Origin: Lachnospiraceae bacterium
GTDB lineage: Bacteria > Bacillota > Clostridia > Lachnospirales > Lachnospiraceae
Direction: 5' to 3'
DNA: 64,000 nucleotides
Assembly: GCA_022781985.1 (NCBI GenBank)
Contig: JALESH010000048.1
Location: 1-64,000 of the forward strand
How positions within the stretch are numbered: the stretch's first letter is position 1; the number at the start of each line of letters is the position of its first letter. This document shows positions 10,598 through 50,678 of this stretch, piece by piece. Under the pieces are notes generated by a model, which had not been told where the DNA came from, made no database searches, and worked only from the letters and a program-made list of their open reading frames with translations. The position numbers and the translations under genes are program-made.

Positions 10598-13056
10598 TGC
10601 ATTCACAATTTACGGATAAAGCAAAGGCAGCGCTGCTGCTGGCAGAGAAGATTGCGGCCAGCCTGCGCCAGGGATATGTGGGGACAGAGCATATTCTGGC
10701 GGGGTTGTTAAAGGAGGGTACCGGCGTGGCGGCCAGAGTCCTGGCGGATAACGGACTGGAGGAAATCCGGCTGCTGGAGATGATCCGGGATCTGATCACA
10801 CCCTCGGCAGGAGTTCCGGCTAAGGACAGGGACGGCTATTCTCCCAGGGTGCTCAAGGTGCTGGAGGAGGCTCACAGACAGGCGGAGCGTTTCAGGGCAG
10901 GCAGTACGGGGACAGAACATATTCTTCTGGCGCTGATCAAAGAGGGGGAAAATGTGGCGGTAAGGCTGATGAACACATTGGGTATATCCGTACAGAAGGT
11001 GTATGTGGATGCCCTCATTGCCATGGGAGAGGACGGATCCCTCTATAAGGAGGATCTGTCCAGGAAGCCGGGCGGCAGAAAGAAGGGAGGAGCCTCTGTT
11101 CTGGATCAGTACAGCAGGGATCTCACGGCTCTGGCAAAGGCAGGGAAGCTGGATCCGGTCATCGGCAGGGAGAATGAAATCGGCAGAGTCATTCAAATTC
11201 TCAGCAGGAGGACCAAGAATAACCCCTGTCTGATCGGTGAACCGGGGGTGGGTAAGACTGCCATCGTGGAGGGGCTGGCACTCAGGATTGTTTCCGGCGA
11301 GGTACCCCTGACCGTACAGGACAAGAGGGTACTCACCCTGGATCTGTCCGGTATGGTAGCAGGCAGCAAGTACCGCGGAGAGTTTGAAGAGAGAATTAAA
11401 AAAGTAATAAAGGAAGTCATAGAGAGCGGGAACGTGATCCTGTTTATTGATGAGATGCATACCATTATAGGTGCAGGGGGAGCGGAGGGAGCCATAGATG
11501 CCTCCAATATCCTGAAGCCCTCTCTGGCCAGAGGGGAGATCCAGCTGATCGGTGCCACTACCATTGCAGAATACAGAAAATATGTGGAAAAGGATGCGGC
11601 ACTGGAGCGTCGATTCCAGCCCGTCAATGTAGAGGAGCCTACGGAGGAAGAGGCAGTTGGGATATTGAAAGGAATTGTGTGTAAATATGAGGAGCACCAT
11701 AATGTGACGATTCTGGAGGAAGCCATAGAGGCGGCAGTCCGCCTTTCCAACAGATATATCAACGACAGGAATCTGCCTGATAAGGCCATTGACCTGATCG
11801 ATGAGGCTGCCTCTGCGCTGCGGCTGAAGACCCTGAAGGTACCGGATAAGATGAAAGAGCTGGCAGAGCAGATCACCAAGCTGGATGTGCAGATAGAGAG
11901 ATCCATACGGATGGAGGTATTCAGCCAGGCAGGAGAGCTGAAGCGGACGCAGGACGGACTGATAAAAAAGTATGACCGGATGAAGGAGAAGTTTGACCAG
12001 GCACAGCGGGAGAGAAGCTATGTGGTAGGAGAAAATGAGATTGCGGAAGTGGTGGCAATGTGGACCAAAATTCCAGTCAAAAAGCTGGCAGAAAAGGAAA
12101 GCGAGCGGCTGCTGAAGCTGGAGTCCATCCTCCATAAGCGGGTCATCGGCCAGGAGGATGCGGTGGCAGCGGTATCCAGGGCAATGCGCAGAGGACGGGT
12201 GGGCCTCCAGGATCCTGACAGGCCCATAGGCTCCTTTCTCTTTTTGGGCCCCACCGGAGTGGGAAAGACGGAGCTGAGCAAGGCTCTGGCAGAGGCTATG
12301 TTCGGATCAGAGAATGCCATGATCCGGGTGGATATGTCGGAGTACATGGAGGGCCACTCCGTATCCAAGATGATAGGATCGCCTCCGGGTTATGTAGGCT
12401 TTGATGAAGGCGGGCAGCTCAGTGAAAAGGTGAGGAGAAACCCCTACTCCGTGGTGCTCTTTGATGAGATTGAAAAGGCTCATCCGGATGTATTCAACAT
12501 CCTGCTGCAGGTGCTGGACGACGGTCATATCACGGATTCCAAGGGGAGGAAGGTGAACTTTAAAAATACCATCCTCATCATGACCTCCAACGCAGGGGCA
12601 CAGCGGATCGTGGATCCCAAGAATCTGGGATTCTCGGCGCAGACAGATGAAAAGAAGGACTATGACAAGATGAAGTCAGGTGTAATGGAGGAGGTAAAGC
12701 GGCTGTTTAAGCCTGAGTTTATCAACCGGATCGATGAGATCATGGTATTCCATCCCCTGAATAAGGAGAATATGAAGCAGATCATCACCCTGCTGTCCAG
12801 GAATCTGGCGAAGCGCTGCGAGGAGCAGCTGGATATCAGCCTTTCCCTGAGTCCTGCTCTGAAGGAATATATCGTAGATAAATACGCAGATTACAAGATG
12901 GGAGCAAGGCCCTTGAGAAGAGCGGTTCAAACCATGGTGGAGGACAGTCTGGCTGAGGAGATCCTGTCAGGGAGAGTCAAACCGGGAGACAGTGTTACCG
13001 CCGGCGTAAAGGATAAGAAGGTGGTTTTTCACGTAAAAAAAGAAGAGGGAAAATAA
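10597..13056 (+). CDS. clpC: ATP-dependent Clp protease ATPase subunit ClpC
   Basis: ClpC is a Hsp100 unfoldase that feeds proteins to ClpP. The 819-residue protein has the paired N-terminal Clp repeats (residues 1-145), NBD1 with Walker A GEPGVGKT near residue 213, a middle region with the UVR-like segment, and NBD2 with GPTGVGKT near residue 550 followed by sensor motifs and the D2-small domain. All key ATPase motifs are intact. mcsA, mcsB and ctsR are not adjacent; a GntR regulator overlaps the start instead. radA lies nearby downstream, as in many Firmicutes. Confidence 0.95.
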
Positions 13057-23610: not shown

Positions 23611-23639
23611 ATGTTTGTATTTATGAGGAGGGCAAAGCC

Positions 23640-24146
23640 ATTAGCGAATTATTTATTAACGAGCAGATTAGGGACAAAGAGGTACGTGTTATTGGTGAAG
23701 ATGGGGAGCAGCTTGGTGTAATGCCTGTGAAGGAGGCTTTCCGGCTGGCAGAGGATGCAGGCCTGGATCTGGTGAAGATCGCTCCCACGGCAAAACCGCC
23801 TGTCTGCAAGATTGTGGATTATGGAAAGTACAGATACGAGCAGGCCAGAAAGGAAAAGGAGGCCAGGAAGAAGCAGAAGACGATCGAAATCAAAGAAATC
23901 CGTCTGTCTCCCAATATTGATACCAATGATTTGAACACAAAGATGAACGCAGCCAGGAAGTTTATTTCCAAAGGTGACAAGGTAAAGATCACTCTTCGGT
24001 TCAGGGGACGTGAGATGGCGCATATTGCAAACAGCAAACATATTCTGGATGATTTTGCAGAAGCTCTTTCCGACATGGCAGTTATTGAAAAGGCGCCGAA
24101 GGTAGAGGGCAGGAGCATGACGATGTTTTTAACTGAAAAGCGTTAG
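23640..24146 (+). CDS. infC: Translation initiation factor IF-3 (ATT start)
   Basis: IF-3 binds the 30S subunit and rejects wrong start codons. The track ORF starts too late (23721): the frame upstream encodes the conserved N-terminus ISELFINEQIRDKEVRVIGEDG. No ATG, GTG or TTG is available there. GAGGAGGG (23625-23632) lies 7 bases before ATT at 23640, so the start is the rare ATT codon, as known for infC in E. coli and others, which lets IF-3 repress its own translation. The 168-residue protein has the N-domain, a Lys-rich linker (KEARKKQKTIEIKEIR) and the C-domain. Confidence 0.95.
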   Translation: MSELFINEQIRDKEVRVIGEDGEQLGVMPVKEAFRLAEDAGLDLVKIAPTAKPPVCKIVDYGKYRYEQARKEKEARKKQKTIEIKEIRLSPNIDTNDLNTKMNAARKFISKGDKVKITLRFRGREMAHIANSKHILDDFAEALSDMAVIEKAPKVEGRSMTMFLTEKR

Positions 24147-48306: not shown

Positions 48307-48319
48307 TAGGAGCTGCACT

Positions 48320-48384
48320 GATGCAGGCGGAAGTTTGAGCAGTTTTGTGCAATTTGCACACTTGCTTCTTTTGCCTGCATTTTG
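48320..48384 (+). terminator. Long imperfect hairpin after rseP
   Basis: GATGCAGGC and GCCTGCATT close an extended stem that has an inner TGTGCA-ATT-TGCACA hairpin, and TTTTG follows. It probably ends the pyrH-to-rseP transcript. Confidence 0.6.
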
Positions 48385-48390
48385 TATAAT
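48362..48390 (+). promoter_or_regulatory. Predicted promoter of the phosphatase-kinase-ispG-polC unit
   Basis: TTGCTT and TATAAT have an exact 17-base spacer; the -35 lies inside the right half of the rseP terminator. The 160 bases to the phosphatase start hold only a short out-of-frame ORF. Confidence 0.55.
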
Positions 48391-48549
48391 CTGATTGTTA
48401 TATGTCTTATATATCATATAAAACACTTCGACTGATCATTTCATGTGTTTCCGAGTTTGTTCTGAGGCTGCCTGTGAGCAGCAGATTTCCGGGTATCTGG
48501 TCTGCAGCAGATCCTTACTGCAGTATGAAAATCAAAAGGGAGGAGGAAG

Positions 48550-49275
48550 ATTATAAAAACAGAGGTTATTTCAGAGGTATATTGGGACAGGGGATTTCGG
48601 GAGATCAATGAGGACTCTGTTTCCCTGCAGGAGGTTAGCCTGAAGGGGAAAAAGGTGCTGTTTGCAGCGGTCTGTGATGGAATCGGGGGTCTTTGGGGCG
48701 GAGAGAAGGCCAGCGGCTTCGTGGCAGAACGGATGACGGAATGGTTTTATAAGGAGGCAGTCATCCTGCTGAAAAAGGGAAGAGGGAGGCAGCGGATCGA
48801 GCAGTCCGGAATCAGGGCACTGTACGGCTGCAACCAGGAGCTGTGCAGATTTGGAGAGAGGAAGGGGAGAAAGCTGGGAACTGCAGTGACTGCCGTTTTG
48901 CTGGATGGAAGACAGTATTTCCTCTGGCACAGCGGAGATACCAGAGCCTACCGTATAGGCAGGAGGATGGGAAGGTTCAAAAGGCTGACCCGGGATCATG
49001 TGGCAGGAAAGCATGCCCTGGTCCGCTGCATCGGGAGCTTTCCGTGGCAGCAGCCTGATGTGCAAAGGGGACATCTGGGACAGATGGAGGCGCTGCTGCT
49101 TTGCTCCGACGGATTCAGGAACAGAATGGCAGAGGAGAAGCTGGCGGAGGCCCTCAGCAGCAGGGCTCTGATATGCAGAGAGCAGATTTTTTTAAGGCTG
49201 AAGGAAATTGGGAGCCATGCCAGGCGGCATGGGGAGACAGATGATATTTCGGCGGTTTTGATCAAGCGGATATAA
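48550..49275 (+). CDS. PP2C-type serine/threonine phosphatase (rare ATT/ATA start)
   Basis: The track ORF begins too late (48655). The conserved RxxNED motif (DRGFREINEDSVSLQEV) is coded upstream in the same frame, which is open only back to a TGA at 48526. No ATG, GTG or TTG exists there. AGGAGG (48541-48546) is followed by ATT at 48550 and ATA at 48553, the likely starts. Further PP2C marks are VCDGIGGLWGGEKAS, WHSGDTRAYRI and LLCSDGFRNRM; the C-terminus has ETDDISAVLI. The 241-residue enzyme should dephosphorylate targets of the kinase coded next. Confidence 0.85.
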   Translation: MIKTEVISEVYWDRGFREINEDSVSLQEVSLKGKKVLFAAVCDGIGGLWGGEKASGFVAERMTEWFYKEAVILLKKGRGRQRIEQSGIRALYGCNQELCRFGERKGRKLGTAVTAVLLDGRQYFLWHSGDTRAYRIGRRMGRFKRLTRDHVAGKHALVRCIGSFPWQQPDVQRGHLGQMEALLLCSDGFRNRMAEEKLAEALSSRALICREQIFLRLKEIGSHARRHGETDDISAVLIKRI

Positions 49276-49313
49276 TCGGAGATGGATATAACAGAGAAAA
49301 GGAGGCGGTTCTT

Positions 49314-50678
49314 ATCAAAACACTGTTGGGAGATAAATATGCTGTCTGCGGGCAGCTTGGGCAGGGAGGGAGCGGCAGGGTGTACAGGGCCTATGATCAG
49401 CATCTCCAGTGCCACGTGGCCATCAAGGAATTCCGGGCCGGAGATGGGATCTCCGCAAAGGAGCTGGGCATACTGAAGGAGCTGCGGCATCCTGCCCTGC
49501 CGGTGATCCTGGACTATCTGGAAGAGGACGGAAACAGATATCTGGTCATGGAGTATATAGAAGGGATGAATCTGGAGGAATATATCTGTGAAAAGGGCAG
49601 GATACCCCAGGAGAAGGCAGTGGGCTGGGCGCAGGAGCTGGCAGGGGTGCTGGCCTATCTTCATGAAAGGGAACGGCCGGTGGTATACCGGGATATGAAG
49701 CCCTCCAATATCATGATTGATACAAAGGGGAGCATATGGCTGGTGGATTTCGGGACTGCCTATCTCCACTATCATGAAGGAGAGGAGTCCTTTGTCAGGG
49801 CCGGAACCCATGGCTATGGCGCGCCGGAGCTCTTTCTGGGAAAGGGAGGGGTGGATGAGAGAAGTGACATCTATGGTTTGGGGGCCACTCTGTTCCACAT
49901 GCTGACAGGAATCAACCCCGCTCAGCCTCCCTGCCTGATGCAGCCCATCAGGACTTATGACAGATGCTTCCTGCCGGAGCTGGAGAGAATCGTGCAAAAG
50001 GCCACTGAGCAGGATAAGGAGAAGAGGTATCAGACGGTCCGGCAGATGATGGAGGAGCTGAAGGGCTGCGGGAGGGAGAAGCTGTGGAGAAAGGGAATGG
50101 TCAGGATCTCAGAGCTGGCCTACTGCTGTCTGCTGTTAGGGCTGGTCCTTCATTTTCTGGGAGTCTGCAGAGCTGCAGGAGTGCTTCATATGGAGTGGGC
50201 ACAGGGCGAGATATGGAAAAGCAGGGTAAGCCTTCGGGAAATAGAGCTGGGCAGACAGGCTGTATGGGAGATTCTGCAGGCAGCTTTTCTGATATTTTCT
50301 GTTTGTACGGGCGGGGAGGCAGTTCGGAGATGGCGGGAAAGGGGGAGGCAGGAGGTGAAGCATGGGAGGAGTCTGCTGCTTACCTCCAAAAAGGGGAAGG
50401 GGCTTATGCTGGCAGCTCTGGCCGGAGTTCTTGCAGTGTCGGGCAGCGCGTGGGCGGGGGCGGACGGAGAGCTGGCTGTTCATGTGAAGAATGGGAACGG
50501 ACAGAAGGTATTGATACGGCATGATGCCATATATGCCCTTGACGGCATGCTGAAGCTGGAGCTGCCGGCAGATAACTTTGAGGAAGGGAGGTGCTATGAG
50601 CTGGAATTGGAATGTGTGGACCGGGACACAGGAGAGAGGAGAAACAGAACTTTCTATCTGAAAAGGCTTGAACCCTGA
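49314..50678 (+). CDS. Membrane Ser/Thr protein kinase (possible ATC start)
   Basis: The kinase domain spans residues 1-260: GQLGQGGSGRVYRA loop, catalytic Lys in VAIKEF, YRDMKPSNIMI (HRD-type with Tyr), VDFGTA (DFG) and GTHGYGAPELF. Two or three hydrophobic helices follow, around residues 265-290, 325-345 and 365-385. A C-terminal presumably external domain of about 70 residues is not PASTA. GGAGG lies 8 bases before ATC at 49314. The track TTG at 49326 is 20 bases away and trims the KTLLG lead-in. It pairs with the PP2C gene upstream. Confidence 0.85.
   Translation: MKTLLGDKYAVCGQLGQGGSGRVYRAYDQHLQCHVAIKEFRAGDGISAKELGILKELRHPALPVILDYLEEDGNRYLVMEYIEGMNLEEYICEKGRIPQEKAVGWAQELAGVLAYLHERERPVVYRDMKPSNIMIDTKGSIWLVDFGTAYLHYHEGEESFVRAGTHGYGAPELFLGKGGVDERSDIYGLGATLFHMLTGINPAQPPCLMQPIRTYDRCFLPELERIVQKATEQDKEKRYQTVRQMMEELKGCGREKLWRKGMVRISELAYCCLLLGLVLHFLGVCRAAGVLHMEWAQGEIWKSRVSLREIELGRQAVWEILQAAFLIFSVCTGGEAVRRWRERGRQEVKHGRSLLLTSKKGKGLMLAALAGVLAVSGSAWAGADGELAVHVKNGNGQKVLIRHDAIYALDGMLKLELPADNFEEGRCYELELECVDRDTGERRNRTFYLKRLEP

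Follow-up and report, generated by a model that had tools for sequence, protein, structure and literature searches.

Candidate AUH start codons in an adjacent pair of PP2C phosphatase and Ser/Thr kinase genes of an uncultured Lachnospiraceae bacterium

A PP2C-type phosphatase gene and the Ser/Thr kinase gene adjacent to it downstream, both on the + strand, are probably both translated from AUH codons (AUU, AUC or AUA), the phosphatase from ATA 48553 (or ATT 48550) and the kinase from ATC 49314. That both genes use AUH starts has good support, from the elimination of other start codons and from the orthologs, and the most likely consequence would be that the weak starts keep the pair scarce. 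The genes lie in the window, the whole stretch of 64,000 nucleotides analysed here, which is part of contig C34 of the 2.44 Mb draft genome of an uncultured Lachnospiraceae bacterium; the pair is present in all 16 genomes of our genus sample. It is flanked by rseP and ispG in the congener G010 and likewise in L031 and L034, two named relatives, and ispG is found 3' of the pair in three further loci. Between rseP and the phosphatase gene lies a leader of 243 nt (48307-48549) with a G+C content of 42%, the value for the window being 52%. No Rfam family was detected at or above the cut-off in the window at 48307-48549, and promoter and terminator matches around the leader were at chance level only. 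The features of the window on which the argument draws are the following (SD, Shine-Dalgarno sequence).

23640..24146, + strand: infC (IF-3) with an ATT start, AGGAGG at 23626-23631, 8 nt upstream; the AUH reference within the window
48526..48528, + strand: TGA stop closing the phosphatase frame upstream, from the reading of the frame
48538..48546, + strand: GGGAGGAGG, putative phosphatase SD, with GGGAGG 6 nt before ATT and AGGAGG 6 nt before ATA
48550..48552, + strand: ATT, possible phosphatase start codon; a canonical codon is absent between TGA 48526 and GTG 48655
48553..48555, + strand: ATA, favoured phosphatase start; its column is shared with the SD-spaced ATT of G010
48553..49275, + strand: PP2C-type phosphatase gene, which a start at ATA would make 240 codons long plus the stop; PF13672, E 1.8e-10
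49299..49305, + strand: AAGGAGG, putative kinase SD, 8 nt before ATC 49314
49314..49316, + strand: ATC, putative start codon of the kinase; five congeners have ATG in this column
49314..50678, + strand: Ser/Thr kinase gene, 454 codons and a stop; PF00069, E 7e-42
49326..49328, + strand: TTG, sole standard alternative kinase start, 20 nt from the SD AAGGAGG

As the original prediction had it, the phosphatase frame (48529-49275, ending in TAA) is open only from 48529, behind TGA 48526-48528, and holds no canonical start codon (ATG, GTG or TTG) before the RxxNED motif (R at 48598, NED at 48607-48615); the first such codon is GTG 48655, and the motif requires codons upstream of 48601. RxxNED supplies metal ligands in PP2C enzymes, and GTG 48655 is unsuitable as the start because the motif would be lost. 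A canonical start is, by elimination, absent from the phosphatase gene. The AGGAGG said to stand just before ATT-ATA is also in place: it occupies 48541-48546, 6 nt from ATA 48553, and overlaps a second SD, GGGAGG (48538-48543), 6 nt from ATT 48550, so that both codons are well placed. The protein scores 41.2 bits against PF13672 (Pfam cut-off, 24), and the PP2C motifs RxxNED, DGIGG, SGD, SDG and DD/DN are conserved in the genus alignment. The kinase frame is open from 49245 to 50678, and here the coordinates and distances given originally were right, with the SD 8 bases before ATC 49314 and TTG 49326, the sole standard option, 20 bases away. The kinase thus has a canonical codon, but a badly placed one, and both genes have an SD at functional spacing (6 nt and 8 nt) from an AUH codon. 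In folding calculations the phosphatase start site is less structured than shuffled sequences (z +1.7), and that of the kinase is average.

When the phosphatase orthologs are aligned, ATG stands in a single column in 14 of the 15 congeners; the window has ACA there, two codons downstream of ATA 48553. The exception is G010, the closest species (67% identity), whose phosphatase has no ATG, GTG or TTG start and shows GGAGG-7nt-ATT, with the ATT aligned to the column of ATA 48553. Since synonymous sites are saturated between the window and G010 and dN is only 0.24, the genes are subject to purifying selection, and one recent error does not account for the missing ATG. In the kinase alignment, ATC 49314 falls in the column that holds ATG in five congeners and TTG in a sixth (G007). 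For the G010 kinase there are two options, an in-frame AGGAGG-8nt-ATA, not positioned at ATC 49314, and a TTG that lies 60 nt further upstream and follows a G-rich stretch; codon scores favour neither. The kinase codon is therefore homologous to ATG, and the phosphatase codon, through the ATT of G010, belongs to a class that was kept. Good candidate AUH starts are found in three of the four genes that make up the pair in the window and in G010; the fourth, the G010 kinase, is ambiguous. A caveat is that the trait is seen in two genomes only, both of them drafts.

AUH use is concentrated in particular genes and is not a general looseness of the genome, because such genes are few and ATH codons show no excess. 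Our scan covered 1.66 Mb of the window genome, with 1,189 genes. An SD-associated ATG, GTG or TTG was found in 1,078 of these genes, and in the remaining genes of the scan ATH codons were no commoner at SD spacing than other codons; genome-wide AUH use was accordingly rejected for this 1.66 Mb. Several of the ATH candidates listed are either intragenic or simply followed by an ATG one or two codons later. The genes among the 1,189 without a well-placed canonical start at a plainly coding 5' end are infC, the phosphatase, the kinase, an spmB-like Gate-domain gene, spoIIGA and an ECF-sigma-like ORF. By a simple count, the probability that two among about five such genes in 1,189 are neighbours by chance is about 1-2%. 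The SDs of the pair are strong but not exceptional, an SD match of at least 6 nt being found at 35% of canonical starts. The ECF-sigma-like ORF (G000:C27:4096, L112) has no canonical start in its first 99 codons; it was rejected as an AUH gene, an out-of-frame ATG lying nearby and a disrupted frame being likelier.

IF-3 discriminates against AUU, AUC and AUA starts, and in E. coli it is an established regulator of its own gene, infC. That infC uses ATT in the window (23640, with AGGAGG at 23626-23631) was correctly predicted, and ATT is the infC start in all 15 genus genomes in which the gene was read. For the pair, we infer from the sequence that initiation actually takes place at the AUH codons and that output is lowered. 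A strong SD at normal spacing would select each AUH codon, with which the initiator tRNA would pair imperfectly; initiation would be inefficient, and the pair would therefore be less abundant than in the congeners that use ATG. An altered IF-3 was considered and rejected: the IF-3 sequences of the genus are 84-96% identical to that of the window, and no systematic change in the sub-clade is apparent by eye in the genus alignment. An initiator tRNA gene was not found in the contigs examined. In S. aureus, infC, ccpN and citZ have AUA starts and cvfC1 an AUU start, and extended SDs are found in infC, ccpN and cvfC1; AUA/AUU starts give a reporter output of about 10% of that of AUG in poor medium, and the effect of the medium is clear in ccpN, a modest rise in citZ and absent in cvfC1 (PMC13009471). 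Because these starts cut output and their medium dependence varies by gene, lowered expression is the safer reading for the pair than IF-3-responsive regulation.

We consider it unlikely that the pair is an IF-3-responsive unit, in which the phosphatase and the kinase would rise together with infC when IF-3 is limiting, linking phospho-signalling to the translation state. Such a unit would fit the codon class, which is the one that IF-3 discriminates against and to which the ATT of infC in the genus belongs, as well as the fact that both neighbours share a feature rare in the genome. It would also fit the medium dependence of the AUA gene ccpN in S. aureus, but the AUU gene cvfC1 has no such dependence and the AUA gene citZ only a modest one (PMC13009471). 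Moreover, the trait is limited to a sub-clade of two species and is therefore not a general link. Stronger translation of the pair when IF-3 is scarce is, from the class of its codons and from the way infC is autoregulated, at most plausible.

It is rather improbable that the kinase starts at TTG 49326, which would leave an AUH start to the phosphatase only. This TTG is in frame and would leave the kinase domain whole, and the TTG of G007 in the column of ATC implies that TTG starts are used in the family; however, TTG 49326 lacks an SD of its own and stands 20 nt from AAGGAGG, whereas ATC 49314 has a spacing of 8 and lies in the ATG column of five congeners. Still less probable, by far, is a sequencing or assembly error concealing true ATG codons. 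The assemblies of the window genome and of G010 are both fragmented drafts, and the original prediction took ATG in orthologs as a sign of sequence error; the ATG is indeed present in the phosphatase of 14 of the 15 congeners, but the closest of them, G010, independently lacks a canonical start and has an SD-spaced ATT, which argues against an error. In addition, the ACA in the ATG column of the window is two substitutions off, the SD is shifted upstream to suit ATA/ATT, and errors would be needed at the start codons of two neighbouring genes. Programmed frameshifting from short upstream frames (ATG 48525 and ATG 49282) is scarcely credible and was rejected, for although these out-of-frame ATGs overlap both starts and the short ORF of G010 ends in TTT-TAA, which could slip +1, the two genes would need different shifts (+1 in the phosphatase, -1 in the kinase), there is no evident slippery heptamer, ATG 48525 has no SD and the strong SDs are placed as AUH starts require.

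AUH initiation, the preferred reading for the pair, may be better conserved in the spmB-like Gate-domain gene, whose start column is ATT, ATC or ATA in all 14 genus genomes read, with all three represented (loci L201, in G000:C20, minus strand, start at 12869, and L202-L214). In several genomes an in-frame stop lies 2-5 codons upstream and no canonical start stands in between. The column is ATG in the two closest sister-genus orthologs (L230 and L232; 70-73% identity) and AUH throughout the genus, so ATG was apparently replaced by AUH once, the class then being kept while the third base changed. The spmB-like gene is the best conserved candidate and the strongest test of AUH initiation in the genus. 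In spoIIGA (L215, L217-L224 and L226; in G000:C52 near 19311, minus strand), 10 genus genomes have no in-frame canonical start at the conserved 5' end; all of these show there an ATA and an out-of-frame overlapping mini-ORF whose length does not vary (ATG-N9-TAT-ATA-TGA). An in-frame ATG is present in four further congeners and in G010. Possibly, spoIIGA is expressed from the AUA, by re-initiation or by a +1 frameshift. That infC, the spmB-like gene, perhaps spoIIGA, and the pair of the sub-clade make up a selected AUH regulon, whose translation would rise jointly when IF-3 is limiting, is a speculation to which we give little weight; if true, it would tie phospho-signalling and sporulation to the translation state. 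AUH genes other than infC are few, and they are easily mis-annotated because gene finders normally ignore such codons. With the pair and the spmB-like gene, Lachnospiraceae would provide evidence that selection uses weak starts to adjust protein amounts, as well as concrete test cases for control by IF-3 beyond infC. Nothing relevant emerged from literature searches on AUH starts in genes for kinases or phosphatases, in spmB or in spoIIGA.

Adjacent PP2C and Ser/Thr kinase genes with the phosphatase first, as in the window, are also a feature of the PrkC/Stk1 PASTA kinases with Stp1/PrpC. However, the window kinase scores 166.7 bits against a PASTA-kinase cut-off of 450 and the phosphatase 97 against 230 for Stp1 (NCBIfam equivalog), and no Pfam match to a PASTA domain was found in the window kinase. 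With scores so far below the cut-offs, assignment of the pair to this system was rejected; a separate kinase/phosphatase pair on contig C65 fits it better, and the phosphatase of that pair has an SD-associated GTG. infC, whose start is always ATT in the genus, resembles the pair in joining an AUH start to an SD, but whereas autoregulation by IF-3 is established for infC of E. coli, no IF-3 effect is known for the pair. E. coli pcnB is alike in its weak AUU start, which is described as limiting expression of the chromosomal gene (Binns and Masters 2002, as cited in PMC13009471), and differs in being a single proteobacterial gene, for poly(A) polymerase. Also close are ccpN (AUA; S. aureus and B. 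subtilis) and cvfC1 (AUU) and citZ (AUA) of S. aureus, which like the pair are Firmicutes genes other than infC with AUA/AUU starts; moreover, ccpN and cvfC1 combine a strong SD with a conserved unusual start, as the pair does (PMC13009471). Unlike the pair, these are unrelated single genes backed by ribosome profiling and reporter proof (PMC13009471), whereas the pair consists of two adjacent genes, known from their sequence and conserved over two species only. The phosphatase and the kinase would thus be additional AUH-initiated genes of a known class, the twist being that they form a kinase-phosphatase pair.
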